A DNA stretch of 64,000 nucleotides from Diplolepis rosae (Eukaryota > Arthropoda > Insecta > Hymenoptera > Diplolepididae), in NCBI GenBank assembly GCA_030998225.1, contig JAPYXD010000484.1, positions 6,014,001-6,078,000 of the forward strand. The letters are read 5' to 3'. The position numbers were made by a program, and so were the translations under genes. Within the stretch, counting starts at the first letter, position 1. Each line of letters opens with the position of its first letter. The notes under the pieces were generated by a model. The model ran no database searches and was not told the origin of the DNA. It saw nothing but the letters and a program-made list of their open reading frames with translations. This document shows positions 19,623 to 41,424 of the stretch, piece by piece.

Positions 19623-22090
19623 ATTCTAGTGGGAAGCTTCAAAATAAAGGTCAACCAAAAGTTGTTTCTATATATGTTGATGGTGGGAGAAGGTGTACTG
19701 GTGTCATGATCTTCGATCTAACAATTTTAGCTGTGCGTGATTGCTTCATAGAGTATACAGACGGGGAATTTGACCTGACTATTAAATTCGCAAATAATAA
19801 AAAGTCATATAAAGCTACATTAAAAATTTACTCTAAAAATCAACGAGAAGCAAAAATCTATGAAGTAGACCTTGTGGCTGTAACCGTGAGTAATTGAATA
19901 TTAATTTAAATTATAAACAAAAAATGTTGATGGTCTGAATTTTTTATAAATAAAAAATTGCAAAATGTATGATTTAGATCAAATCAAAATCATTTCTGAA
20001 AACATTTAGTTTATGGCATTTTTTCCAGCTTAGTGAGAAGGATAATCCTCCAAAATGTGAATGGACCTTTCAATTGCCTGAATCTGATAAACATGGTGAT
20101 AAAGGACAAATTACACTTATCCGTAATTTTAAAAACAAAGATGACGTAAGAACAATGGATGTTATATTCGACGATTGCAAGAAAATTTTAACTAAGGAAT
20201 ACAATTTATCGAAATCAATTTGCGTAAAAAGAGGCGCAACCTGGGAGACTAACGAAGTAAATACCTTTATCAACTTTAAAATAAATGTTTAACAAAACTG
20301 ATGAATGATTAATTAACATTATATATTCCAATATTTTTGATGTTCTTAGTTGGCTTTAGGGTCCAGAAAAAATAAAACTCAAAGTTTCATGTTTCTAAAA
20401 ACCTTACCCTCCACTTTACTTTACAAAGCCTTTACCAAGTCTGTTGCCAAATGCAACTCAGTTTTGATGAAAAATCCGTAGTGACAGGAGTGTTTCTCAA
20501 AAATTATGTGGTCACCTTATTCGCGACGAAATAAAAGGAAAATGAAAATTTGTGATTGTGTCACTTCAATTATTTTGTTCACCAACGATTTGTCCGTCTA
20601 CTTAATCAAATAACAGGTCAGTTTTTGTTTTGGTGATACTTTATTGTCATGAGTTCACAGTTCTTAGACTTTTTATTCTGTAATAATTCTTCTTAACTTC
20701 CACAATTTTACTGCATATATAATCTTTCTTAAGGGAATTTAAGAAAAAAAAAATTTTCCTGTATAGTTTTTTTTATGAATTCAGCTATTTAGACCGTTTT
20801 TACAGCTTTCACACGTACACGCACGTTATATCGTTTGTTACCACAATGTTTATCCGTTACACGTGCAAATATTTTACGTTTTTTCCGTTATATTTTTTTA
20901 TAGGAAAAAAAGTTTGCACAGTTTTTATTTAGTTAAATGTGCGATTGATTTATATCGTTTACCACTAGGTTCATCCGTCACATGTGCAATTTTTTAAGTC
21001 TCTTCTCTTTGTATTTTTGTAGAAAATATTTTTGGTACGGTTTAATTTCTGTAAATTTAGTTTAGACCAATCTTATAGTATATCACATGTACAATTCATT
21101 TATAGCGTTTTTACCACAATGTTCAGCGGTCACACGTGCAAATTTTTTAAGTTCTTCCCTTTGTATTTTTATAAAAAAAATTTTTATACAGTTTTTATTT
21201 TGTGTAAATTTAGTTATTTAGACCAATTTTATAGTTTCACATATACAATTCATTTATATCGTTTTTACCAAAATGTTTATCCGTCACACGTGCAATTTTT
21301 TAAGTTTTCCCCCTTAGTATTTTTACAGAAAAACTTTAACACAGTTTTCATTTCTTTTGCAAATTTAGTTATTTAGACCAATTTTATAGTTTCACATGTA
21401 CAATTCATTTATATCGTATTTATCACAGTGTTTATTAGTTACACGTGCAAATTTTTCTAAGTTTCTTCCTTTGTATTTTTGATAGAAATAATTTCTTACT
21501 GATGAGGACTCCAATCTGAGTCGAAACGTTTGAAAACATGAAATTTTTTCTGGACCTTAAAGCCAACTAAGAACATCAACAATATTTGAATATTAATACT
21601 AAGGGTCGATATAAGTCCTGTTCATTATTATCAACATTTAAAGAATTTTAAATCTTTCTGTGGAAAAAAGACGCTTTTGACTGCGCTGGGATTCGAGCCC
21701 AGGTCTTTCGATTGCCGGTCGACTGCTCTAACCACTGAGCTACACATGCGCCCGACATCTTCTCCATAGGAAGATCTCCTCATATCGCCTAGTGGCTCAG
21801 CCTTGCGGCTATAAATGATTTCAAGTTAATTAGTTGAATTTGAAATTTCTGCCACTGCCTAAATTATCGGAGAATCACTGGTCACGTATCAGATATATAT
21901 ATTTTTCTTTCAGGAAGATCAAGGAGCCCCTCTTTTCTTAGATGGCAAATTTGCAGGGGTTATGAGGCAACAAGAAAGTCCATCTAACTCCAGTCTTTTT
22001 GAAAATCTTTACTACGAAAAAGAATATTTCGAAAAACTTCCACAAAATCCTGCTAAAAATAAGAAACCGGCCAACAAGAAAAAAACATAA
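19623..22090 (+). CDS. Trypsin-fold serine protease homolog (gene A), exons 2-4
   Basis: Three exons join in frame: 19623-19885 (acceptor CTCTACAG, donor GTGAGTAA), 20029-20256 (acceptor TTTTCCAG, donor GTAAAT) and 21914-22090 (acceptor TTTCAG, stop TAA). They give about 222 residues, close to an S1 domain. The block CTGVMIFDLTILAVRDCF matches the Cys42-Cys58 region of trypsins, with Asp where His57 should be. EDQGAPLFLDGKFAGV matches the GDSGGPL region, with Gln in place of Ser195. It is therefore a non-peptidase S1 homolog, probably secreted as a regulator or venom-type protein (inference). The C-terminus is Lys-rich. Exon 2 begins in phase 1, as in gene B, but I did not find the signal-peptide exon upstream. 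Confidence 0.75.
20820..21480 (+). repeat. Tandem array with CACGTG in each unit
   Basis: Five diverged units of 121-155 bp; the recurring block CACACGTGCAATTTTTTAAG starts near 20860, 20981, 21133, 21287 and 21442. Other shared parts are GTTATTTAGACCAATTTTAT and TTCATTTATATCGTTTTTAC. Most units keep the E-box CACGTG. Confidence 0.75.
21499..21527 (+). ncRNA. Hammerhead ribozyme-like core
   Basis: CTGATGA (21499-21505) and GAAAC (21523-21527) are the two conserved hammerhead boxes. Between them GACTC (21507-21511) pairs with GAGTC (21518-21522), with one unpaired G beside the first box. Stems I and III were not resolved. Penelope-like elements are known to carry such ribozymes. Activity is not established. 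Confidence 0.55.
21679..21749 (-). other. tRNA pseudogene or tRNA-derived sequence
   Basis: On the minus strand TAGCTCAGTGGTTAGAGC forms a D arm and CTGGGCTCGAATCCCAG a perfect T arm. The acceptor stem is mostly mismatched, and C replaces the invariant T33 before the putative anticodon GGC. This argues for a decayed tRNA or SINE head within the gene A intron. Confidence 0.45.
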
Positions 22091-23660: not shown

Positions 23661-24721
23661 GGAATTAGGGAGTTCCCTGATGAATGTACGTTAATGCTGA
23701 CAGAGGATAACTGAAAGTAGGGGAGAAGCGGCGAAATTAGCGCGTCGTCTAAATTGGCGCACCCTATTTTTCAGAAAATGATAACATAACAAAAAATAAA
23801 AATAGTTCTATCGTGTGCATTCTTGTATGATATATATTTGATAGAAAACATTATAAAAATCTAATTGCTTAATACAGTTTTATTGCGATTAATCGTTTTT
23901 TGGCATAATGGTTATATTCGAAGCCATTGAGTTAAATCGTTAAATAATAGTAATTCAAGGTGAATTAGATTAATGCAACGATTTTATAATCTTTGATATT
24001 TAATCTTACGATTAGGATAGAATATTTGTATGAAAAATAAGCATTTTACGTAAAAAGTATTTAATTAATGAACGATACACTTGCGGCAAAATTGGCGCAT
24101 ACGAGATTCAAATCAGAGGCGAAGTTGGCACACGTGTTGTGTTTCTGAAAACCGGTGACTGAAGTCAAGTGCTCGGATGTTTATGATTGAAAATATAAAG
24201 AAGATAGTAAGTACACAATTATTAATATATAGATATATACATTTAAATGTTGCTCGACTTTTCTGCTAATCTTTTTCTTAAGATTTTTTGTGACATGGGA
24301 GGTAATGTGGTTCGCAAAACTGATGTAACGACTTTGTAAGGTTATATTCATTTGAACAATCAGTGGTTAAATTTTTTTTTTAAGTTTGAGGTATTAAGGC
24401 ATTTTAAAAGCGATTTTTAATAATTAAGTAAAAAATTTGTATTTTTGATTGATTGTTTCTATTATTTATAAGTCTTCTAAAGTTAATAATTGTATATACT
24501 TCTGATTACAAATTCAAATAATTCTCTATAAAAATGATTTCAATTTGAATATTCAAGTAGTTATACAATGCCGGTTCTAGATGCAAATTCCTGTAACCGA
24601 CATTTACCGACATCGAGAAGCTTCGATTGGTTCTGTTCCAAGCTAAGTCTGGAAGTTTCAAGAAGGAGTTCGAAGCATATGACGTCACACTATACCCTTG
24701 ATAAATTGTTTATTAATGAAT

Positions 24722-24749
24722 GGGGGTGGGGGTGGGGTGGGGTGGGGGT
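24722..24749 (+). other. G-quadruplex-type run near palindrome tip
   Basis: Five runs of four or five G separated by single T. The right arm has a version with different run lengths (37048-37071, C-rich on the plus strand). It lies about 170 bp inside the tip. Confidence 0.6.
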
Positions 24750-25165
24750 CATCTCTTTCGGGAAACATTTATTTCAAAGACTTTAGGAGTTGGTTTAACC
24801 TCTGTACGTATGGAATGTAAAGGACAAATGTTAAAAAATATTTCCTAGAAAAATAAAGGCATGTGACGGACAAATATTGAAAAATATTTCTCAGAAAAAT
24901 AAAGGCATATGGTTAATTTAAACGCTCTCAGGATGTTTAATGTAATAAATTTGATAAAATTTTTTCTGATTAATTTAGACGTGGGGTATGTGTGAAATGA
25001 TTTCGTTTTTAGAGCTTGGATTGTTTATGCTAATAAAATTGATATGACATCTCCCAGTTAGACTGCAGTAATCTGATATCTTACGTTTATGACATTAAAT
25101 CACATTCGGGATATGTGAACAATAATACCCCTCTTGTTTAAAACGAAGATAGAAACATATACCAT

Positions 25166-25203
25166 TATAAAAAGATGCATCTCACTGTTAATAAGAATCA
25201 TTT
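25166..25203 (+). promoter_or_regulatory. TATA box and initiator of left polymerase gene
   Basis: TATAAAAA at 25166 is followed by TCATTT at 25198-25203, a match to the arthropod initiator TCAKTY with its A about 34 nt downstream of the TATA box. The polymerase ATG is about 50 nt further on. The identical pair occurs in the right arm. Confidence 0.55.
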
Positions 25204-25251
25204 GTAACTGAAGTCTGAATCCTTCACTTGTATTTTGTATAAAGAAAAGTC

Positions 25252-27252
25252 ATGGATTCTGAATATTACAAGAGACTTATTAGGATTATGGACGAAGCCT
25301 ATCAATTATTAAAATATAATTCAAGTTTCGAATTGTATGAAAAATGGTTGAAATTCGGTAAACGAAATATTCGTTTAATAAATAAATTTTTTAAAGTGAA
25401 CAAAAATAAGTTGTCAGTGCATGAGAAGATGAGGATAACATCTACACTTGGAATACTGAAAGCATTAAACACTAAAATAAACCAACTACGGAAGAAAGGA
25501 AGAGGTACAGCATTATCGAGTCAAGAGGAAAGGAGAAGAATAAGGTGGGAAGATTTAGAGACTGCTTTTCAGAATAGAATTAAAACGGGTTCTATTGTTA
25601 ATTTAACACATATAGATTTAAAACATTTTTTGGAGGATGCTAAGTTATTAACAATTAAAAAAATAAACAGTGTTTTAAGGCAATATCCAAATTTGAAAAT
25701 TAATGTAATTTTATATGGTAAATTTAAAACTTTAGTAGAAGGGAAAATGGATGAAGCTATAAAGTATTTCAACACAAAGAACGATATTATTTCTCAATCA
25801 ACAGATTTAGATGCGTGGTATGATGAAAAAGTAAAAGATCAGCTTTTAGTAAATGCTGAAGAATTTCAGGAAGAAAATTCTGGTTGGTCTTTAATTGAAA
25901 TTATGAATTTATTAGTAAATATAAATAAATATGCCCCTTTTCAAATTGGATTATCAACGTACAACAATTTACCAAAGTATATTCAAACACAAAAGGCAGT
26001 GGTTAATATAAAAAATAACGATCCTTATTGTTTTTTGTGGTCAGTCACGGCAGCATTGAATCCCGTAGAAAATAATGCATGCTTAATGAGTTCTTATCCT
26101 CATTTTAGTGAAGTGTTAAAATACGATAACATAAAGTTTCCAATCAGTTTTTCTGACATCAAAAAGTTTGAAAAAATGAATAGTTTAAGTATAAACATTT
26201 ATGGTGAAGATAATGAAAAATCTAAAAAAACAACAGAAATCGTTCCTTTTTATATAAGTCAGGAAAAATCAAATTTACCTGTAATTCATCTTTTAATGAT
26301 TGAAAATACTTTAGTTGATGTTAATGAAGAAGATTATATTGGTGATGATGAAATTGATATTTCTAAACCAATTTATCATTTTTCATGGATAAAAAATTTA
26401 TCTAGATTAATAAGTTCACAAGTCACAAGAAATGAGCATCGAATATTAATATGTGACAGATGCCTATGTCATTTTAGTTCAGAAAAGTCTTTTCGAAGTC
26501 ATATATTGACATGTCAAAATATAAATAAATGTAGAATGATTTTACCAGATCATGAAAATAATATTTTGAAATTTAAAAACTATCAATATAAAGAAAAGGT
26601 GCCTTTCGTTGTATATGCTGATATTGAATGTCTTCTGGAGCCAGTGGTTGACTCACACATGAATACATCTATTTATCAAAAGCACGTTCCTACAAGTGTC
26701 GCTTATAATGTACTATGTAGTTTCGATAATTCAATTTCTAAAATTAAACTTTATCGTGACAAAGACTGCATTGAGTGGTTCATAAATGAACTAAAATGTT
26801 TGGCTGAAAAAGTAGATGAGTATTTAAAAATTATAGTACCAATGGAGCCTCTAACTAATCAACAAAAACAAGAATTTAAATTTGCAAAAATTTGTCACAT
26901 TTGTGAAAATCCTTTCAAAATTGATGATATCAAACACCGTGATCATTGCCACTTTACAGGCAAATATCGCGGTGTTGCTCATCAGGGTTGCAATATAAAT
27001 TACAAGAATTCACACGTGATTCCAGTAGTTTTTCATAATTTATCAGGTTATGATTCCCATTTTTTTATCAAAGCTTTAGCGACAAGTTTTGAGGGAAATG
27101 TCAGTTTATTACCAATAAATAAGGAAAAATACATTTCTTTCACAAAAAATGTTGAAAAAACTAATGTAAAGCTACGATTTATTGACTCTTTTCGATTTAT
27201 GCCGAGTAGTCTTGAAAAATTAGCATTATTTCTCAATAATGATGAAAAATAA
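25252..27252 (+). pseudogene. Protein-primed family B DNA polymerase, N-terminal part (left arm)
   Basis: ATG in good context (AAAGTCATGG) opens 666 codons. Residues 240-420 include the [12 protein letters not shown] and [16 protein letters not shown] blocks typical of animal Polinton-type polymerases. A C2H2-like finger (CDRC...H...C, about 401-421) follows. The exonuclease motif YADIEC carries Asp457 and Glu459. A Cys/His cluster like endonuclease VII (CHIC...[13 protein letters not shown], about 548-585) comes next, then Exo [11 protein letters not shown] with Asp601. The frame stops at 27250-27252 after NNDEK; the enzyme continues in another frame 18 nt on. The same stop exists in the right arm. 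The role would be replication of a linear DNA from a terminal-protein primer. Confidence 0.85.
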
Positions 27253-27269
27253 TAACAAAAAGACACTGT

Positions 27270-28226
27270 GTGAATGATAATGAATTTAATTTACTGACTA
27301 GAAAAGGTGTATTTCCATATAGTTATATTGACAATTGGGAGAAATTAGAAGAACATCAATTACCCCCAAAAGAGGCTTTTTTCTGTAAATTAAATAATTC
27401 AAGTATTTCTAATGAAGATTATCAGCATGCTCGTAGAGTTTGGGAAACTTTCAACTTGAAAACTTTAGGTGAATATTCAGATCTTTACCTCAAAACTGAT
27501 GTCCTACTTTTATCTGATATTTTTGAAAATTTTAGACACCATTGTTTAAAAACATATAATTTAGATCCATTGCATTATTACACGGCACCTGGACTTGCTT
27601 TTGATGCAATGTTAAAATTTACTAAAATAGAACTCGAATTGTTGACCGATCCTGAAATGTTATTGTTCATCGAAAGTGCTATTAGAGGTGGTGTCTCTCA
27701 ATGCTCTAATAGATATGCAAAAGCAAATAATCGATATATGGAGTCCAATTTTGATCCAAATTTACCTGAATCATATATTATTTACTTTGATATTAATAAT
27801 CAGTACGGTGCAGCTATGAGTGAGTTTTTACCTTACAGAAATTTTGAATGGGTAGAAGATTTTTCAATGATTGATTTTTTAAACATTCCTGATAATTCAT
27901 CTGTAGGTTTTATACTTGAAGTGGATTTTGAATATCCCGAACAGCTTCATGATTCACATAAAGATTTACCTCTATGTCCAGAGCATTTCATAGCCCCCAA
28001 TTCAAAATGCAAAATTTCAAAACTGATGACAACTCTATTACCCAAGAATAATTACATTGTTCACTATAGAAATTTTAAATTGTATTTAAGTTTGGGTGTA
28101 AAATTAACAAAAATTCATAGAGTTTTGAAATTTGATCAAAAACCTTGGTTAAAAAGCTACATTGATCTGAATACAGAATTAAGAAAAAATCAGACAATGA
28201 TTTTGAGAAAAATTTTTATAAATTAA
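27270..28226 (+). pseudogene. DNA polymerase middle part (left arm)
   Basis: The continuation opens with [16 protein letters not shown], standard for these polymerases. It contains polymerase motif A in the form YFDINNQYG, catalytic Asp at residue 174 of this segment. The frame is lost in an A-run at 28184-28189 (six A; the right arm has seven), giving a stop before motif B. The segment is therefore broken at both ends relative to the family. Confidence 0.8.
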
Positions 28227-29002
28227 TGAATAATTCTGTATTTGGAAAAACGATGGAAAATGTTAGGAAGCATAAAGATGTAAAATTAGTTACAAAGTGG
28301 AAGGGGAGGTATGGCGCAAAAGCTCTAATAGCAAAACCAAATTTTCACAGCTGCACCATATTTGATGAAAATATGGTTTTAATAGAGCTTAATCGATTAA
28401 AAGTAAATTTTAACAAACCAATTTATACAGGTTTTACTATTCTCGATATATCAAAAATAATGATTTATGATTTTCATTATAATTATATGAAACATAATTT
28501 CGGAAACAATGCAAAATTACTTTATACAGATACAGACAGTCTAATATATGACGTCACAGTTCCAGATTTTTATAATTACATTCGAAGAGATATTCATAAA
28601 TTTGATACGTCTGATTATCCTCCAAACAATGTTTATGATATTCCTCTTGCGAATAAAAAAGTTTTAGGTTTAATGAAAGATGAGAACAATGGGAAAATTA
28701 TGTTAGAATTTATTGGATTGCGATCAAAACTATATGCATTTAAAGTACAGGGGGATCAAGAAGAAAAACGAAAGGCTAAAGGCGTTAAAGGGTCAACTTT
28801 GACAGAAATAACATTTGAAGATTATAAGCAGTCTCTATTTTCCTATAAAAACCTTGTCAAGACTCAATTCCTGATTCGAAGTAAAAAGCACGAAGTGCAT
28901 ACGATTAAACAAAATAAAATAGCCTTGAGTTGGTATGATGATAAAAGAATGCTTCATCCTGGGAAAACAGACACTTTTCCATGGGGCTACATTATGAAAT
29001 AA
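28226..29002 (+). pseudogene. DNA polymerase C-terminal part (left arm)
   Basis: Begins within motif B ([11 protein letters not shown]) and includes motif [10 protein letters not shown], with the two metal-binding Asp at segment residues 102 and 104. The Lys-rich KAKGVKG and [17 protein letters not shown] blocks that end these enzymes follow. The C-terminus PWGYIMK is typical. The three left-arm segments total about 1240 residues, the usual full length, so only small indels break the gene. Confidence 0.85.
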
Positions 29003-29282
29003 TTTAAAGAAAGTCCAAAAGCATCTTTTTCGATGTCTCTCTATAACATATACTCTTAAATATTCTTCTGAAGCTGAACTTATCACAAGAGGATCACATT
29101 ACTGTAAACAAGCTCTGGAATATATAAGGAGGTGACAACGGGAAGAAACCATTACTAAATTCATCATCATCAGAAGCTCTAACTCTTTACAAAGTGAAGA
29201 TTTAAAAAAAGGAAGGAAGTGAAAAACAAAAAAAACAGTAAGATATTCTAAAAACTTTTACAATATTTTATGAAAAAAGTGT

Positions 29283-30547
29283 ATGTGTGGAAGTGTTTTG
29301 CAAAAGTTGGGATATTTTTTATATTCATGGATATATCTCGTAAGTGATTTTCTTATTCTATATCGAAACATGAAAAAATCTTTATTTTTTTAATATCACA
29401 ATTATATCAAAAAATTTTATTCAAAGAAAATATGCTTAAAATTCTGATCGCTCCAAAAAATTTAACTGCAATTTAAAAATAAAATTGATCGAGAATGTTG
29501 TTAACTTAAAAAATTAAATACATGAAAAATTACTTGATGATTTTATTTTTTAAGTTATTTTGAACTTAAAATTTTTCAGAAAAAACTATAATTAGATGAA
29601 AACTCTTCCAAAGAATTGTGATACAGATATGAGAACTTTACACTGTTAAAAATTTATGTATTAAACTTCCATTTTATATAATGGAAGTTTTTTTTAGTAT
29701 CTTATATTAAATTTAAAATACTTTCATCTTAAAAAAATTAAAAACTTTTTTTGTAATTTGATACAGATGGGTATATATTTTTATAATTTTTATTAAATCA
29801 AATTTACAGTATTAATTTCAAATACATGTAAAATTACTTAATGATTTTATTTGATATTTATGATTTATTGAAAAATGTTATTAATTTAAATAGTCTTTAA
29901 TATATAAGTAGTCAAATTAAAATAAAATTAAAATAAATAGATTTTTTATCTAATTATAGTTTTTTATGAAAAATTTTAATTTCGAAATAACTTGAAAAAT
30001 AAAATCATCAAGTAATTTTTCATGCATTTAATTTATTTAAACTAACAACATTCTCGGTCAATTTTATTCAAAATTGCGATTAAATTTTTTTGACTGTTCA
30101 GAATTTGAGTGTTCAGAATTTGAGCATACTTTCTTTGAATAAAATTGTTTGATATAATTGTGATATTAAAAAATTCATGATATTTTGATGCTTCAGATAA
30201 GAATAGAAAAATTATTAAAGTACATTCAGAACATATAATCTGTTCCAAATTTGCAACATTTATTTTTTCATTCAAATTTAAGTATAAAATAATAATAATA
30301 ATAATAATAATAATTTTCAAAATATTTGTTTCAGATCATGGATTATGTCCACATCTTAACGACAGTGAAGATTCCCGAGGAGTGGATGAGGTCTACTCCA
30401 TACAGCATCTTAAAGGAGGTTTGCAGTGATGCAGTGTCGAGATTCATTGCAGACCCACAGGCGCTAATTCTGATGGAGTTTGGCGGAGTGTTTACCATGC
30501 TCCAAAAAGATGAAGAAGACAGTGGTCTTATTTTTAAAAAATTATAA
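29283..30547 (+). CDS. Candidate two-exon small gene (left arm)
   Basis: Exon 1 (ATG at 29283 to 29339) ends at a perfect donor GTAAGT at 29340. Exon 2 (30335-30547) follows the acceptor TTTGTTTCAG. The join keeps frame and predicts 89 residues: a hydrophobic start, then a compact domain with KIPEEWMRSTPYSILKEV and ADPQALILMEFGGVF. I recognise no family. AATAAA follows near 30606. The right arm lacks one base just before the donor and one A in the run at 30504-30508. The intron contains its own inverted repeat. It could be a terminal protein, an accessory factor or a captured host exon; none of these is shown. Confidence 0.45.
29390..30180 (+). repeat. Inverted repeat inside the small gene's intron (left arm)
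   Basis: 29390-29610 and 29940-30180 are inverted copies with blocks such as TTACTTGATGATTTTATTTT and ATAATTGTGATATTAAAAAA. A hairpin is thus nested in each palindrome arm (mirror at about 31615-32405). Confidence 0.7.
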
Positions 30548-30862
30548 AAACCAAAAACGTAAAAAAAGTTAAAAAATATTTCACAATATATTATCAATAT
30601 TTGTAAAAAATAAAAAAATGTGATTTTTTAACAAATTTATATAAAAATAAAAATATATGATGAAAATTTTTGCAATATAAAAATTAAATTGTGTCGTTTC
30701 ATTCCACTACCTTTCCCCACTTTTATTTACGATGGTTCGTTTTATTGAAAAAATAATTTTTATTCATAAAAAAAGTCTGTTTCATCAGAATTTTTCAGTT
30801 TTTTAGTTGACGAATTGTATTTAAATATAAATTTTTGTAATAAAATGAATTGAAGTATAGTA

Positions 30863-30936
30863 TTTTAAAGTTAAATTTAAGAAATATTTGTATTAAAAAG
30901 CATATTTTCAAATTTAAAATACGGTTGGTGAAAAAT
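30863..30936. other. Unpaired spacer at palindrome centre
   Basis: 74 bp with no inverted partner separate the arms. It is AT-rich and contains no gene. Both arms' transcripts are directed into it. Confidence 0.8.
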
Positions 30937-31224
30937 TACTATACTTCAATTCATTTTATTACAAAAATTTATATTTAAATACAATTCGTCAACTAAAAAC
31001 TGAAAAATTCTGATGAAACAGACTTTTTTTATGAATAAAAATTATTTTTTCAATAAAACGAACCATCGTAAATAAAAGTGGGGAAAGGTAGTGGAATGAA
31101 ACGACACAATTTAATTTTTATATTGCAAAATTTTCATCATATATTTTTATTTTTATATAAATTTGTTAAAAAATCACATTTTTTTATTTTTTACAAATAT
31201 TGATAATATATTGTGAAATATTTT

Positions 31225-31470
31225 TTAACTTTTTTTACGTTTTTGGTTTTTATAATTTTTTAAAAATAAGACCACTGTCTTCTTCATCTTTTGGAGCATG
31301 GTAAACACTCCGCCAAACTCCATCAGAATTAGCGCCTGTGGGTCTGCAATGAATCTCGACACTGCATCACTGCAAACCTCCTTTAAGATGCTGTATGGAG
31401 TAGACCTCATCCACTCCTCGGGAATCTTCACTGTCGTTAAGATGTGGACATAATCCATGATCTGAAACAA
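31225..31470 (-). pseudogene. Small candidate gene, right-arm copy (exon 2)
   Basis: Mirror of 30335-30547. It encodes the same MDYVHIL...FTMLQK region but has four A where the left arm has five (31289-31292), so the last ~15 residues differ. The matching exon 1 (about 32457-32512) lacks one base before the GTAAGT donor, so the left-arm splice would be out of frame here. Confidence 0.45.
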
Positions 31471-32790
31471 ATATTTTGAAAATTATTATTATTATTATTA
31501 TTATTATTTTATACTTAAATTTGAATGAAAAAATAAATGTTGCAAATTTGGAACAGATTATATGTTCTGAATGTACTTTAATAATTTTTCTTTTTCTTAT
31601 CTGAAGCATCAAAATATCATGAATTTTTTAATATCACAATTATATCAAACAATTTTATTCAAAGAAAGTATGCTCAAATTCTGAACACTCAAATTCTGAA
31701 CAGTCAAAAAATTTAATCGCAATTTTGAATAAAATTGACCGAGAATGTTGTTAGTTTAAATAAATTAAATGCATGAAAAATTACTTGATGATTTTATTTT
31801 TCAAGTTATTTCGAAATTAAAATTTTTCATAAAAAACTATAATTAGATAAAAAATCTATTTATTTTAATTTTATTTTAATTTTACTACTTATATATTAAA
31901 GACTATTTAAATTAATAACATTTTTCAATAAATCATAAATATCAAATAAAATCATTAAGTAATTTTACATGTATTTGAAATTAATACTGTAAATTTGATT
32001 TAATAAAAATTATAAAAATATATACCCATCTGTATCAAATTACAAAAAAAGTTTTTAATTTTTTTAAGATGAAAGTATTTTAAATTTAGTATAAGTTACT
32101 CAAAAAACTTCCATTATATAAAATGGAAGTTTAATACATAAATTTTTAACAGTGTAAAGTTCTAATATATGTATCACAATTCTTTGGAAGATTTTTCATC
32201 TAATTATAGTTTTTTATGAAAAATTTTAAGTTCAAAATAACTTAAAAAATAAAATCATCAAGTAATTTTTCATGTATTTAATTTTTTAAGTTAACAACAT
32301 TCTCGATCAATTTTATTTTAAATTGCAGTTACATTTTTTGGAGGGTTTAGAATTTTAAGCATATTTTCTTTGAATAAAATTTTTTGATATAATTGTGATA
32401 TTAAAAAACTAAAGATTTTTTCATGTTTCGATATAGAATAAGAAAATCACTTACAGATATATCCATGAATATAAAAAATATCCCAACTTTTGCAAAACAC
32501 TTCCACACATACACTTTTTTCATAAAATATTGTAAAAGTTTTTAGAATATCTTACTGTTTTTTTTGTTTTTCACTTCCTTCCTTTTTTTAAATCTTCACT
32601 TTGTAAAGAGTTAGAGCTTCTGATGATGATGAATTTAGTAATGGTTTCTTCCCGTTGTCACCTCCTTATATATTCCAGAGCTTGTTTACAGTAATGTGAT
32701 CCTCTTGTGATAAGTTCAGCTTCAGAAGAATATTTAAGAGTATATGTTATAGAGAGACATCGAAAAAGATGCTTTTGGACTTTCTTTAAA

Positions 32791-33420
32791 TTATTTCATA
32801 ATGTAGCCCCATGGAAAAGTGTCTGTTTTCCCAGGATGAAGCATTCTTTTATCATCATACCAACTCAAGGCTATTTTATTTTGTTTAATCGTATGCACTT
32901 CGTGCTTTTTACTTCGAATCAGGAATTGAGTCTTGACAAGGTTTTTATAGGAAAATAGAGACTGCTTATAATCTTCAAATGTTATTTCTGTCAAAGTTGA
33001 CCCTTTAACGCCTTTAGCCTTTCGTTTTTCTTCTTGATCCCCCTGTACTTTAAATGCATATAGTTTTGATCGCAATCCAATAAATTCTAACATAATTTTC
33101 CCATTGTTCTCATCTTTCATTAAACCTAAAACTTTTTTATTCGCAAGAGGAATATCATAAACATTGTTTGGAGGATAATCAGACGTATCAAATTTATGAA
33201 TATCTCTTCGAATGTAATTATAAAAATCTGGAACTGTGACGTCATATATTAGACTGTCTGTATCTGTATAAAGTAATTTTGCATTGTTTCCGAAATTATG
33301 TTTCATATAATTATAATGAAAATCATAAATCATTATTTTTGATATATCGAGAATAGTAAAACCTGTATAAATTGGTTTGTTAAAATTTACTTTTAATCGA
33401 TTAAGCTCTATTAAAACCAT
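32791..33420 (-). pseudogene. DNA polymerase C-terminal part (right arm)
   Basis: Same sequence as the left segment from MVLIELN on, with motif [10 protein letters not shown] and the C-terminal PWGYIMK. It is cut off from motifs A and B by a frameshift at the T-run 33497-33500 (plus strand), which has one base more than the left arm. Confidence 0.8.
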
Positions 33421-33427
33421 ATTTTCA

Positions 33428-34525
33428 TCAAATATGGTGCAGCTGTGAAAATTTGGTTTTGCTATTAGAGCTTTTGCGCCATACCTCCCCTTCCACTTTT
33501 GTAACTAATTTTACATCTTTATGCTTCCTAACATTTTCCATCGTTTTTCCAAATACAGAATTATTCATTAATTTATAAAAATTTTTCTCAAAATCATTGT
33601 CTGATTTTTTTCTTAATTCTGTATTCAGATCAATGTAGCTTTTTAACCAAGGTTTTTGATCAAATTTCAAAACTCTATGAATTTTTGTTAATTTTACACC
33701 CAAACTTAAATACAATTTAAAATTTCTATAGTGAACAATGTAATTATTCTTGGGTAATAGAGTTGTCATCAGTTTTGAAATTTTGCATTTTGAATTGGGG
33801 GCTATGAAATGCTCTGGACATAGAGGTAAATCTTTATGTGAATCATGAAGCTGTTCGGGATATTCAAAATCCACTTCAAGTATAAAACCTACAGATGAAT
33901 TATCAGGAATGTTTAAAAAATCAATCATTGAAAAATCTTCTACCCATTCAAAATTTCTGTAAGGTAAAAACTCACTCATAGCTGCACCGTACTGATTATT
34001 AATATCAAAGTAAATAATATATGATTCAGGTAAATTTGGATCAAAATTGGACTCCATATATCGATTATTTGCTTTTGCATATCTATTAGAGCATTGAGAG
34101 ACACCACCTCTAATAGCACTTTCGATGAACAATAACATTTCAGGATCGGTCAACAATTCGAGTTCTATTTTAGTAAATTTTAACATTGCATCAAAAGCAA
34201 GTCCAGGTGCCGTGTAATAATGCAATGGATCTAAATTATATGTTTTTAAACAATGGTGTCTAAAATTTTCAAAAATATCAGATAAAAGTAGGACATCAGT
34301 TTTGAGGTAAAGATCTGAATATTCACCTAAAGTTTTCAAGTTGAAAGTTTCCCAAACTCTACGAGCATGCTGATAATCTTCATTAGAAATACTTGAATTA
34401 TTTAATTTACAGAAAAAAGCCTCTTTTGGGGGTAATTGATGTTCTTCTAATTTCTCCCAATTGTCAATATAACTATATGGAAATACACCTTTTCTAGTCA
34501 GTAAATTAAATTCATTATCATTCAC
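33428..34525 (-). pseudogene. DNA polymerase middle part (right arm)
   Basis: 365 codons including motif A (YFDINNQYG) and motif B ([14 protein letters not shown]). The seven-base run at 33605-33611 keeps this arm open through the position where the left arm breaks. It then shifts frame near 33497 and ends in unrelated residues. Confidence 0.8.
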
Positions 34526-34542
34526 ACAGTGTCTTTTTGTTA

Positions 34543-36543
34543 TTATTTTTCATCATTATTGAGAAATAATGCTAATTTTTCAAGACTACTCGGCATAAAT
34601 CGAAAAGAGTCAATAAATCGTAGCTTTACATTAGTTTTTTCAACATTTTTTGTGAAAGAAATGTATTTTTCCTTATTTATTGGTAATAAACTGACATTTC
34701 CCTCAAAACTTGTCGCTAAAGCTTTGATAAAAAAATGGGAATCATAACCTGATAAATTATGAAAAACTACTGGAATCACGTGTGAATTCTTGTAATTTAT
34801 ATTGCAACCCTGATGAGCAACACCGCGATATTTGCCTGTAAAGTGGCAATGATCACGGTGTTTGATATCATCAATTTTGAAAGGATTTTCACAAATGTGA
34901 CAAATTTTTGCAAATTTAAATTCTTGTTTTTGTTGATTAGTTAGAGGCTCCATTGGTACTATAATTTTTAAATACTCATCTACTTTTTCAGCCAAACATT
35001 TTAGTTCATTTATGAACCACTCAATGCAGTCTTTGTCACGATAAAGTTTAATTTTAGAAATTGAATTATCGAAACTACATAGTACATTATAAGCGACACT
35101 TGTAGGAACGTGCTTTTGATAAATAGATGTATTCATGTGTGAGTCAACCACTGGCTCCAGAAGACATTCAATATCAGCATATACAACGAAAGGCACCTTT
35201 TCTTTATATTGATAGTTTTTAAATTTCAAAATATTATTTTCATGATCTGGTAAAATCATTCTACATTTATTTATATTTTGACATGTCAATATATGACTTC
35301 GAAAAGACTTTTCTGAACTAAAATGACATAGGCATCTGTCACATATTAATATTCGATGCTCATTTCTTGTGACTTGTGAACTTATTAATCTAGATAAATT
35401 TTTTATCCATGAAAAATGATAAATTGGTTTAGAAATATCAATTTCATCATCACCAATATAATCTTCTTCATTAACATCAACTAAAGTATTTTCAATCATT
35501 AAAAGATGAATTACAGGTAAATTTGATTTTTCCTGACTTATATAAAAAGGAACGATTTCTGTTGTTTTTTTAGATTTTTCATTATCTTCACCATAAATGT
35601 TTATACTTAAACTATTCATTTTTTCAAACTTTTTGATGTCAGAAAAACTGATTGGAAACTTTATGTTATCGTATTTTAACACTTCACTAAAATGAGGATA
35701 AGAACTCATTAAGCATGCATTATTTTCTACGGGATTCAATGCTGCCGTGACTGACCACAAAAAACAATAAGGATCGTTATTTTTTATATTAACCACTGCC
35801 TTTTGTGTTTGAATATACTTTGGTAAATTGTTGTACGTTGATAATCCAATTTGAAAAGGGGCATATTTATTTATATTTACTAATAAATTCATAATTTCAA
35901 TTAAAGACCAACCAGAATTTTCTTCCTGAAATTCTTCAGCATTTACTAAAAGCTGATCTTTTACTTTTTCATCATACCACGCATCTAAATCTGTTGATTG
36001 AGAAATAATATCGTTCTTTGTGTTGAAATACTTTATAGCTTCATCCATTTTCCCTTCTACTAAAGTTTTAAATTTACCATATAAAATTACATTAATTTTC
36101 AAATTTGGATATTGCCTTAAAACACTGTTTATTTTTTTAATTGTTAATAACTTAGCATCCTCCAAAAAATGTTTTAAATCTATATGTGTTAAATTAACAA
36201 TAGAACCCGTTTTAATTCTATTCTGAAAAGCAGTCTCTAAATCTTCCCACCTTATTCTTCTCCTTTCCTCTTGACTCGATAATGCTGTACCTCTTCCTTT
36301 CTTCCGTAGTTGGTTTATTTTAGTGTTTAATGCTTTCAGTATTCCAAGTGTAGATGTTATCCTCATCTTCTCATGCACTGACAACTTATTTTTGTTCACT
36401 TTAAAAAATTTATTTATTAAACGAATATTTCGTTTACCGAATTTCAACCATTTTTCATACAATTCGAAACTTGAATTATATTTTAATAATTGATAGGCTT
36501 CGTCCATAATCCTAATAAGTCTCTTGTAATATTCAGAATCCAT
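34543..36543 (-). pseudogene. DNA polymerase N-terminal part (right arm)
   Basis: 666 codons, predicted protein identical to the left N-terminal segment, with the C2H2-like finger, exonuclease motifs and endonuclease VII-like cluster. It ends at the same premature stop as in the left arm. Confidence 0.85.
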
Positions 36544-36591
36544 GACTTTTCTTTATACAAAATACAAGTGAAGGATTCAGACTTCAGTTAC

Positions 36592-36629
36592 AAATGATTC
36601 TTATTAACAGTGAGATGCATCTTTTTATA
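36592..36629 (-). promoter_or_regulatory. TATA box and initiator of right polymerase gene
   Basis: Mirror of 25166-25203: TATAAAAA (minus strand, 36622-36629) and TCATTT (36592-36597) with the same spacing. Confidence 0.55.
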
Positions 36630-37696
36630 ATGGTATATGTTTCTATCTTCGTTTTAAACAAAGAGGGGTATTATTGTTCACATATCCCGAATGTGATTTA
36701 ATGTCATAAACGTAAGATATCAGATTACTGCAGTCTAACTGGGAGATGTCATATCAATTTTATTAGCATAAACAATCCAAGCTCTAAAAACGAAATCATT
36801 TCACACATACCCCACGTCTAAATTAATCAGAAAAAATTTTATCAAATTTATTACATTAAACATCCTGAGAGCGTTTAAATTAACCATATGCCTTTATTTT
36901 TCTGAGAAATATTTTTCAATATTTGTCCGTCACATGCCTTTATTTTTCTAGGAAATATTTTTTAACATTTGTCCTTTACATTCCATACGTACAGAGGTTA
37001 AACCAACTCCTAAAGTCTTTGAAATAAATGTTTCCCGAAAGAGATGACCCCCCCACCCCACCCCCAGCCCCATTCATTAATAAACAATTTATCAAGGGTA
37101 TAGTGTGACGTCATATGCTTCGAACTCCTTCTTGAAACTTCCAGACTTAGCTTGGAACAGAACCAATCGAAGCTTCTCGATGTCGGTAAATGTCGGTTAC
37201 AGGAATTTGCATCTAGAACCGGCATTGTATAACTACTTATTCACTTAAATATCCACAATTGCCAGTATTTTATTGTACAAATATAAAATATATTTTAACT
37301 TTGGCTGGTTTATGTGAATAAAGGTATAAAAAACTTCACATATCTTGATATACTATCTCAAATTTAGTTTCAAATTATAACTACCTCTTTTCATCAACCT
37401 TTGCTACTGAAATGTAATTCTAAATCGATGAAAATATAACTAATACGTGGCAAGAGAAGATTGTAATATTAGTGCGTCAATTTACCCGACATGGCGGGTA
37501 AATTGACGCAGGTGCAGTCCTTCGGAAATCTGAATAAAAACCTGCTTTAATAATTTTCAATGCAATCTTTATCCATTGGAAAGTATAGAAAAGATATCCA
37601 GCTATTAAATAAATATTTTTTCATAATTTTTAGTCATATACTTTCTTTTTAAACTCGCACTTTCTATTAGGTGCGCCAATTTCGCCGCTTCTCCCC

Positions 37697-38535
37697 TATA
37701 TCAAATTCCACGTAAATTAAAAAAAAACAATGTTCTATCTTTATAAACTTCAGAGTTATGAATTTTTCAAACTTTATGTTTTCCATTGTTTTTTCGCTCT
37801 TTTTCTGAAAAAATGGAAAACACGTTTTCTTGACTATTTCTGCAATTTTGACGTGAAAATTAAAAAGTGGCTCTAACTTCAATAGGTCAAAAGTTATGAC
37901 CTCTCGAACTTGACCCTCTCTGTATTTTGTGAGTCAAACGTACTGAAAAATGTAATTTCCGTCACTTTTTGACTAATACAGTAAAATGCAATGCACTGAA
38001 TAATTAGTATTGATTAATTAGACATTTTGGGTGAATAAATTAATAATTATGTAAATTCATTTTTCATTTTTGACGCATTTTTCCTTCATTTTATCGCTGA
38101 AATTAATTCCAAATGGTTTAATGGTCAATTTTCTTAAACAATTAAACATATTTATAAACAAATAAATGTTATTAAAAATCAAGTTTTTACTTTTTCTGCA
38201 TTTATGACTATTTTTGTCTCCTAAATTAATTCAAAATAATAAATATTCATTTTTTGTAAGCGAAACAAAATATTCTTTTTTAACCAATACCATACATGTT
38301 AAAACTGAGTCTCTTTTCTGATAATTATTCCAATCTTTTTAGAAGGTATGGACAGTGGATAATAAACATTTATTTTTATTTTACTTTATTCAATACTACA
38401 TCTCGTACAGTCAATATAAACATTCTTCTGTTATATGCACCACTAGAAATTCTACAATTTAATTTAAAACTGTAATAACTAATTATATCAAGACATGTTC
38501 CTGTACATGTTTTGGATTTTTTATATTGACCCACA
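37697..38535. other. Noncoding host-repeat sequence
   Basis: AT-rich stretch between the split element and the hammerhead element. It is probably internal sequence of the outer inverted repeat. No gene is recognised. Confidence 0.4.
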
Positions 38536-38613
38536 GTAATAAATATATGATAATTGCATCGGCATGGGGTCAGTTACTTTTTTTCAAATATATAAAATTT
38601 CAAAGTGGCAAAC

Positions 38614-38643
38614 GTTTCGGCCACAGATGTGGGCCCTCTTCAG
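38614..38643 (-). ncRNA. Hammerhead ribozyme-like core, left arm
   Basis: On the minus strand CTGAAGA (38637-38643) and GAAAC (38614-38618) bracket a stem GGCC...GGCC extended by ACA/TGT with one bulged C. CUGANGA allows any base at the fifth position. It lies in the left TIR of the 38543-41417 element. Confidence 0.5.
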
Positions 38644-40009
38644 TGCCAGATTTATTTAAAAGTAAAAACATTAAGATATCTAAGCAGCCTTAGAAAATAA
38701 ACCTTAAAAATTAATCATTAATAATTAACCTGAAATGCGTGCAATTTATAAGTTATTTAATAACCTAAGAGTAATACTAATTTTTGTCTTTGTTTTTTTT
38801 TGATTTTTTATTTTATTACTTTAATTAAGTTAGTGGATCATGCATAAAAATTTTGGAAAAAACTCATGAAAAAGTGAAGGCCTGATGTTGGACGACCAAA
38901 GGAGAGGTGCAGTTTTTTTGTATTAAAAAATTAATCCCAGTTGCGCTCGTGAGAGTGTGAGGTTGTCAACCACAAACAGCACATAAAAACTAAAAAAAAC
39001 ACCAGACACAAGAACCACGAGAAGACAACGAAAACACACAAAGAACACGAAAAACCACAGAAACAACACAATAAATTCAAAAAAACAACAAAAAGGAACG
39101 CACACTCACTGATAGGGGTAGATTTGAAATTAAGGCACTTAGATCACGCACTAGAAGTAGTGGGTTTTAATCCACAAAAATTCCGAAAAAAAAAAAAAAA
39201 CAAAAGGAACACACGCTCACTGACAGGGTTATATTTAACATAAAACAACGATTAATTTGAATTATTTTGATTGCTGACTTAATACACTTAAATCACGCAC
39301 TAAAAATGATGAGTTTTAATTCACAAAAATTCCAAAAAAACACGAAAAAACACTTTTCACTCACAGGGGTAGATTTGACACAATAACCAATTAATTACAC
39401 ACTACCGGTAACGAGTTTAATCGCAAAATTAAGTTAAAAACTTATAATTATCCTACACACACACGCGAGCGCAAATAAGAGATGAAAGAAATAGTTTTCC
39501 ACTCTTTAGAAAAGTAGAAAAATCGACGTTCGTCGAGGTCGTTCCACGTCAAAAAGCAGACTGATTTTGAGAAAGGAAATATGACATTTAAAGTCAATGG
39601 CAAAAATGCTTTTATGTATAAAAAGAAATGTGTTAAGAGGACTCGATTTTAAAGTCTCCAAGCCTGTACAGTTCAAGAGCTTGTCCAAACACTTAAAGAT
39701 GTCAAACGGCTCAATAGAAAATGAGAGATGGAAGGCACATGTTCAAGTTGGAATTCAGGGAAAGGAACGGTGCAAGTTTTTCCAGTATATTATTAATATG
39801 CATGTGTTGTAATAAACAGTATGGACTGACTACGTATGATAGAAGTGGTCAGATATTAGGTGATACCAGATTCGTATTTTATAGTATTAATAGAGGGGAA
39901 AAAATGGTATTGGTAATGTAGAAAGGGGAATCCTTATAGAGTATAATATTGCAAGAAAGTAACATCAATTGCGACTCAAACTTGCATAATGAGTTCTAAA
40001 ACTAGCCAT

Positions 40010-41165
40010 TGCGAGAAAGTTATGTAACATTTACATAACAGTAATTGAAAAACTTCAGATAGAGAAATGAGGCCTCATAAACTGATATTTATATAATTAA
40101 TAATAATATATAATGATAATATTAATTATTATTATTAATAATAATAATTAGCTATTGTGAGAGAGTTATGTAACATTTACATAACAGTGATTGAAAAACT
40201 TCAGATAGCGGATTGCAGCCTCATAAACTGACATTTATATGTAGTTTTATGGTGAAAAGAGAATTATATGACAAAAAATTTATTTCGAAGGAGTTATGTA
40301 ACATTTACATAACAATTATTAACAATTGGAACTCCGTGTACAAAGCAGGTGTAGTACTGTAGTACAGATGGAGGTGTATGACTAGCGACTGGCAACCCAA
40401 TAGTTAATGTAACATTAATGTAACGTAGATTGAAGATAGAAGACTTTATCTAGTAAAATGTAACAGTAATGTAACATTTTTTATTGTGACCAGATCCTTA
40501 TCTGAAGAATTCTAGCCGTGAATACAAATATTCGTATGTAGTTTAATAACACAGGGGGAGATGTATGACAATTAGCTATTGTGAGAGAGTTATGTAACAT
40601 TTACATAACAGTGATTGAAAAACTTCAGATACCGGATTCCAGCCTCATAAAACTGACATTTATATGTAGTTTTATGGTGAAAAGAGAAGTATATGACAAA
40701 AAATTATTGCGAAGGAGTTATGTAACATTTACATAACAATGATTGAAAATTGGAACTCTGGGTACAAAGCAGGTGTAGTAATGTAGTACAGATGGAGGTG
40801 TATGACTAGTGAATGCCAACCCAATAATTAATGTAACATTAATGTAACGTAGGTTGGAGATAGAAGACTTTATTTAGTAAACTGTAACAGTAATGTAACA
40901 TTTAATGTGACAAAATCTTTACATGAAGAATCTGGCCGTGAAAAATGATATTCGTATATAGCTCGCAGGGGGAGCTGTATGACAATTGGCTATTGTGAAA
41001 GAGTTATGTAACATTCACATAACAATGATTAAAAACTTACATAGCGAAATCCAGCCCAAAAACTGACATTTATATCTAGTTTTATGGTAAAAAGAGAAGT
41101 ATATGATAAAAAAAACTATTGCGAAGGAGTTATGTAACATTTACATAACAATAATTGAAAATTGA
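40010..41165 (+). repeat. Tandem array of ~420-bp units with TTATGTAA palindromes
   Basis: About 2.5 units start at roughly 40150, 40576 and 40988 (blocks AGCTATTGTGAGAGAGTTAT, AGCAGGTGTAGTA, TAATGTAACATTAATGTAAC). Each unit carries GTTATGTAACATTTACATAA, a TTATGTAA/TTACATAA palindrome, twice. About seven copies occur in all (near 40019, 40166, 40291, 40589, 40717, 41002, 41130). Confidence 0.75.
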
Positions 41166-41316
41166 AAACTCATTTGTTGAAATTCGAACTCTTAGGTTAT
41201 TAAATAACTTATAAATTGCACGCATTTCAGGTTAATTATTAATGATTAATTTTTAAGGTTTATTTTCTAAGGCTGCTTAGATATCTTAATGTTTTTACTT
41301 TTAAATAAATCTGGCA

Positions 41317-41346
41317 CTGAAGAGGGCCCACATCTGTGGCCGAAAC
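41317..41346 (+). ncRNA. Hammerhead ribozyme-like core, right arm
   Basis: CTGAAGA (41317-41323) and GAAAC (41342-41346) with the same stem II as the left copy. One G next to the first box is unpaired, as in the other cores of this window. Confidence 0.5.
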
Positions 41347-41424
41347 GTTTGCCACTTTGAAATTTTATATATTTGAAAAAAAGTAACTGACCCCATGCCG
41401 ATGCAATTATCATATATGTAATAA

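Follow-up and report, generated by a model that had tools for sequence, protein, structure and literature searches.

A palindromic derivative of the PolB end of a Polinton/Maverick family in the Diplolepis rosae genome as a probable snap-back element

We analyzed a 64,000-nucleotide stretch of the Diplolepis rosae genome (assembly GCA_030998225.1, contig JAPYXD010000484.1, positions 6,014,001 to 6,078,000 of the forward strand), referred to as the window, which contains a 12,682-bp palindromic element at positions 24556-37237 with the tips AGTAGTTATACA...TGTATAACTACT. An earlier note on this DNA had described a near-perfect palindrome with collinear inverted arms of about 6.3 kb and a 74-bp spacer, and the arm alignment bore this out, with 6284 matches, 16 substitutions, and 14 gap positions. 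At the base level, the center consists of TAGTA (30858-30862), the 74-bp spacer (30863-30936), and TACTA (30937-30941). A perfect 6-bp target-site duplication (TSD), TATTCA, abuts both tips at 24550-24555 and 37238-37243. The earlier note had thus located the right element, but its ends, 24555 and 37238, were corrected to 24556 and 37237, and the ATTC that it had seen outside both tips is present as part of this longer duplication. The features of the locus are listed below; coordinates preceded by E refer to an ordinary copy of the parental family (E1-E16335) on contig C239, and ORF and TIR stand for open reading frame and terminal inverted repeat, respectively.

23718..24549, plus strand: interrupted host transposon, left half (outer limit approximate, from a 26-bp inverted match with the right half)
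24550..24555, no strand: left TSD TATTCA, occurring once in 4/4 empty-site paralogues read
24556..30862, plus strand: left arm, the PolB-side end of the ordinary element from E1 to ~E6302-E6306
24556..25118, plus strand: stretch matching the 0.56-kb TIR of ordinary copies
25252..29002, plus strand: left-arm PolB, split over three ORFs
30338..30547, plus strand: small conserved ORF, 69 amino acids (aa)
30858..30862, plus strand: left switch point TAGTA
30863..30936, no strand: 74-bp loop, the parent's single-copy stretch between both switch points
30937..30941, minus strand: right switch point TACTA
30937..37237, minus strand: right arm, inverted copy of the left arm
31246..31458, minus strand: right-arm copy of the small ORF, with the first 55 aa as in the left copy and a different end, 71 aa to the first stop
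32791..36543, minus strand: right-arm PolB, split over three ORFs
37238..37243, no strand: right TSD TATTCA
37244..37698, plus strand: interrupted host transposon, right half (outer limit approximate)

Each arm carries PolB, as the earlier note had stated for two convergent genes, but neither gene is intact: the left-arm ORFs span 25252-27252, 27270-28226, and 28226-29002, and those of the right arm span 34543-36543, 33428-34525, and 32791-33420. The right-arm piece 33429-34525 matched the polymerase profile PF03175 (E=5.2e-20). The closest named relatives of the window PolB are hymenopteran, namely, Venturia canescens (56%), followed by Leptopilina, Diprion, and Microplitis. No relatives were retrieved in one scan of a PolB piece against viral contigs or in a search of the PDB sequences with one piece, and PHROGs gave a single weak DNA polymerase match. 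None of the ORFs of the palindrome corresponds to an integrase, packaging ATPase, protease, or capsid protein, and the sequence word used to trace the integrase is absent from it; the lack of integrase, ATPase, and capsid genes noticed earlier is therefore real for the palindrome, whereas ordinary copies of the family carry all three. Since both PolB copies are broken, the window element probably relies on other copies for both polymerase and integrase. The 69-aa ORF is located between PolB and the fold. In 5 fully matched loci sharing its type, the sequence of this ORF is unchanged, and in C117, it is 97% identical (copy labels correspond to contigs). Identity drops to 69.6% in C426 and one arm of C399, with 19 codons changed synonymously and 21 nonsynonymous changes; the ORF splits into two frames in the C427/C229/C252b/C352 type and contains a stop in the other C399 arm. 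It has four further unnamed relatives in the protein database outside the entry of its own genome. The small candidate gene of the earlier note is thus plausible and conserved among loci of the same type, but it is not open in every subtype.

The same genome contains ordinary copies of the family from which the window element derives. These are 16.3 kb long, have TIRs of 0.56 kb, and are flanked by 6-bp TSDs, which were perfect in 8/8 ordinary copies checked. Their products include (i) PolB, with a reading frame that is uninterrupted in an ordinary copy, (ii) a double-jelly-roll capsid protein (PF21738, 1.5e-117), (iii) a PLA2-domain protein (PF08398, 1.7e-11), (iv) an A32-type ATPase (PF04665, 2.7e-9; ORF from a second copy), and (v) an rve integrase (PF00665, 1.6e-15); a chromodomain match (PF00385) was weak, at 0.00073 and below its cut-off, and the protease was assigned by eye. 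A 6-bp TSD and tips starting with AG are features of Polinton/Maverick elements, and the window element has both, with TATTCA at its borders, AGTAGTTATAC at its tips, and a 0.56-kb TIR stretch in common with the ordinary family. The gene set of the ordinary copies is the Polinton/Maverick set (PMC4028283). The left arm of the window element corresponds to E1 to ~E6306 and the right arm to E6381 back to E1, with 99.5-99.6% identity to the parent. The window element is a folded derivative of the PolB end of this 16.3-kb family, copied back to its own tip. It is not the separate minimal Polinton that the earlier note had envisaged, and a wholly separate element class was considered and set aside.

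The flanks of the palindrome are the two halves of one other transposon, as had been proposed. The left half matches at least 41 genomic places (best 40 of 1006 candidates scored), and in 4/4 paralogues read, the joined flanks were read through at ~99% with TATTCA present once. These paralogues represent the empty site that the earlier note had suggested looking for, and the window palindrome was inserted there as a whole, with duplication of 6 bp. Outside the element, we observed imperfect tandem repeat arrays on either side (20746-21494 and 39997-41167) and, in the right flank, a 236-bp inverted repeat with 99% identity (38537-38772 and 41188-41423).

We then compiled the copies of this family; genome-wide counts cover the 757.7-Mb assembly of 428 contigs. 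The tip word occurs at 166 places, 100 of which were taken in and bound 37 elements, which constitute our sample. Twenty of these hold one PolB-start word, and all 20 contain the integrase word; 7 hold two convergent PolB-start words, and the integrase word was found in 0/7; the remaining 10 hold no PolB-start word. Seven of the latter are inverted beyond the 0.56-kb repeat (C399, C387, C353, C379, C84, C86, and C252:2530486-2544840), and C203 is a palindrome in degraded form. C426 was not counted as a palindrome, since only 520 bp of it are inverted, and C359:1486116-1520312, read at one end only, was left unclassified. In total, 15/37 tip-bounded copies are palindromic, and such forms may therefore be an overlooked share of insect Polinton loads. 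Further palindromes outside this list are C365b, C427, C252b, and C117. Palindromic copies with different flanks, for which a search had been recommended, thus exist, so that the other genomic copies are not all ordinary Polintons. A PolB-reduced palindromic group was observed at several sites (C399, C387, C353, C379, C86, and C231), with PolB remnants, where read, of E2655-3125, E3288-3382, and E3818-4222. The abundance of the family might invite the explanation that two ordinary copies landed head to head by chance and that the sequence between them was then deleted. However, the 70 PolB-start words have 10 convergent neighbors closer than 20 kb, 0 divergent ones, and 1 tandem one, whereas random placement predicts a mean of 0.03 convergent neighbors. 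Since, in addition, a single duplication spans the pair, the arms are nearly identical, and the window and C284 junctions lie at short parental inverted repeats, we regard this explanation as the least probable of those considered.

For 17 palindromes, the reading covered both tips together with the flanks; C252b (left tip missing) and C117 (tips unread) are not among them. Perfect direct 6-bp duplications were found in 14 of them, namely, TATTCA (window), CTCACG (C284), ATTATT (C365a), CAAACA (C365b), AATATA (C190), TACGTT (C229), AATATA (C427), GTCCTT (C352), AAGGTT (C399), ATCACG (C387), GATGCT (C353), GGTTTG (C379), ACTATT (C84), and ATCGCG (C203). The other three lack a direct duplication and have inverted host flank instead, of ~1.3 kb in C81, ~1.25 kb in C86, and ~0.3 kb in C252:2530486-2544840; these may be chromosomal events or artifacts and were not counted as integrated palindromes. 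C81:1496321-1505545 is compound, consisting of E1-1594, 1.3 kb of the right host flank copied in inverted orientation, and a palindrome of E1-2895; its outermost tips are bordered by AGCAAT, as if an insertion had been rearranged in place afterwards. In C86:560881-575644, the inversion runs into both flanks, and C252:2530486-2544840 is the sole integrase-side palindrome; its two integrase words face outward, and it lacks the PolB word. Fold-back artifacts are known in long reads (PMC12870357), and the three copies in which the inversion enters the flank could be of this kind. As a general explanation, an artifact of assembly or of fold-back reads is very improbable, given that 14/17 palindromes end at element tips with direct duplications, that the flanks are not inverted in the window, C284, C365a, C427, and C352, that substitutions separate the arms, and that the C284 and window centers have a locus-specific junction in common.

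C284 turns at a perfect 9-bp parental inverted repeat (E6318-6326 and E6370-6378) with a 43-nucleotide loop, and the window element turns at the 5-bp TAGTA/TACTA pair (E6298-6302 and E6377-6381), a few bases away. With a 190-bp probe over the C284 center (36/36 candidates scored), full-length matches were confined to C284 and the window; 34 other places matched in part only, as the unfolded parent would. The substitution at E2767 is common to all four arms of these two palindromes and absent from the four ordinary copies compared, and their TSDs differ (CTCACG and TATTCA). They represent either neighboring folds or one fold followed by a 17-bp deletion. Other copies turn elsewhere: C365a at ~E4604/4647, with ~41 extra nucleotides that match another stretch of the family (a templated insert and not microhomology), C365b at E2045/885, C190 at ~E5962/1768, and C117 at ~E7180/7242, where one arm has a further deletion. 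Loop sizes range from tens of bases up to kilobases. Junctions were resolved to the base as microhomology for C284 (9 bp) and the window (5 bp) and as the templated insert for C365a. The different fold points indicate that palindromes arose repeatedly.

Other palindromes share a junction. With a 181-bp probe over the C229 center (15/15 candidates scored), full-length matches were confined to C229, C427, and C231, and C203, C252b, and C86 were matched in two parts; pieces of 43-60 bp were also present in C400, C382, C277, and C58. The TSDs of C229, C427, and C203 are all different (see above). None of the 15 scored candidates was an ordinary copy with the C229 arm and loop together, from which we infer one founding C229 junction that was carried to several sites. 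Since one junction recurs at different sites, the palindrome probably moved as a palindrome; for the C229 center, common descent is likelier than refolding at a hot spot, without being certain. These data bear on the proposal that the palindromes originate within the chromosome, where a break or stalled fork in an inserted Polinton would be repaired via the inverted end or by template switching while the old duplication stays. Such an origin requires no extrachromosomal stage, the 0.56-kb inverted ends supply homology, and the inverted duplications of C81, C86, and C252:2530486-2544840 do take in host flank; template switching with hairpin intermediates has been proposed for chromosomes (PMC10766183 and PMC4689423). 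However, separate in situ repair events would hardly give the same junction at several sites whose duplications differ, and palindromes are numerous in the sample. We consider an in-chromosome origin unlikely overall: formation in place is possible for any single copy, but the shared junction argues against it as a complete account.

The arms within a palindrome are very similar, with a divergence of 0.04-1.2% (C190 unmeasured); for C284, we found 3 substitutions in 5963 positions as a per-site count, another C284 count including local inverted repeats. C252b is a mosaic: relative to C427, it diverges by 0.8% in the inner block but by 3.3% in the outer arm, which is close to the window type. 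The switch lies between E3886 and E3949, and 122/123 diagnostic sites are concordant across its arms, so that a change entering one arm reached the other, unless the mosaic predates the fold. Correction between arms at a hairpin stage would explain this concordance, as would chromosomal conversion. In each of 8 ordinary copies, the two TIRs differed by 1-6 substitutions, none of which was end-specific; equalization of the ends during replication would be expected to have this effect. The idea put forward earlier that the element replicates as a hairpin or self-complementary molecule fits the shared centers and the concordant mosaics, although it is not proven by them.

Taken together, these data suggest that the palindromes are, with good probability, snap-back derivatives of Polintons, comparable to defective interfering genomes, that were integrated in trans. 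In the window element, the arms are self-complementary and stem from one parental end (E1-6306 and E6381-1), and the junction lies at short inverted microhomology, as it does in C284. The proposed sequence of events is as follows. (i) During linear, protein-primed strand-displacement replication, a growing or displaced strand would fold at short microhomology. (ii) The folded strand would copy itself back to the end, so that the product is self-complementary and each of its tips has an origin. (iii) The integrase of ordinary copies would insert this palindrome in trans. (iv) Some palindromes may undergo additional rounds in palindromic form; at a hairpin stage, their arms would pair, and one would be corrected against the other. 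The established view of how Polintons replicate outside the chromosome is drawn from their genes. For the palindromes, we infer that replication was extrachromosomal and protein-primed and that it included the hairpin stage. A stronger version, conceivable though rather doubtful, is that palindromic Polintons are self-perpetuating: once folded, they would replicate as hairpins or as self-complementary linear DNA with their own or their relatives' PolB, correct their arms mutually in every round, and be inserted by the integrase of the parent. The C229 fold and C399, C387, C353, and C379 might then be lasting snap-back satellites, and double-stranded RNA from read-through of the arms could silence the parent.

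Several points weigh against the snap-back interpretation. (i) C231 shares the C229 junction, but its palindromic core is only 404 bp long and 90% identical, with unlike sequence on either side. (ii) The 8 ordinary copies have no diagnostic TIR sites, so that the palindrome tips cannot be assigned to one parental end. (iii) The inverted host flanks that C81, C86, and C252:2530486-2544840 have in place of direct duplications mean that some inverted duplications here were not made by integration. (iv) Snap-back should form on both sides, but PolB-side palindromes prevail, and the one integrase-side case has inverted host flanks. (v) The palindromes are known from assembled sequence and not as extrachromosomal molecules, and protein priming is predicted from the PF03175 family match. 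(vi) Chromosomal repair guided by the inverted ends could also retain the TSD.

If the snap-back interpretation is true, palindromes with varied parental folds and, in most cases, their own duplications would be physical evidence of linear, end-initiated replication and of integration in trans, and such evidence would be readable from any good assembly. The palindromes would then be like fossil traces of the slips in replication from which defective virus genomes arise, and they would link snap-back defective DNA-virus genomes with non-autonomous transposons. They may also give rise to fragile sites and double-stranded RNA. We found no report of palindromic or snap-back Polintons in the open-access literature, most subscription papers and bioRxiv lying outside this coverage, and a term search of a study of Mavericks in parasitoid wasps (PMC6035795) retrieved no mention of palindromes or inverted repeats.

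The window element can be compared with four known systems. (i) With Polintons/Mavericks (polintoviruses and the adintovirus-like elements of insects), it shares the tips, the 6-bp duplications, and the PolB of the ordinary copies in this genome; it differs in being palindromic, in lacking capsid, ATPase, and integrase genes, and in carrying PolB twice, in broken form. (ii) In adenoviruses, palindromic defective genomes can form because either end of the protein-primed linear genome can initiate, so that it can become symmetric; these genomes are not known to be integrated. (iii) Foldback-type and MITE-like transposons also have long inverted repeats, are non-autonomous, and are mobilized by an enzyme from elsewhere, whereas either arm of the window element reproduces, collinearly, one end of a known parent together with its polymerase gene, and the fold is located at short inverted repeats of that parent. 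(iv) Adeno-associated virus (AAV) produces snap-back genomes, which are described as self-complementary subgenomes of the left or right moiety, symmetric or asymmetric, that replicate with helper functions (PMC8235507). The palindromes described here, with loops of varied size, are similar to these symmetric and asymmetric forms. AAV replicates from hairpin ends with Rep, whereas the parent here has, by family match, a protein-primed polymerase, and its palindromes occur as genomic insertions with target duplications.

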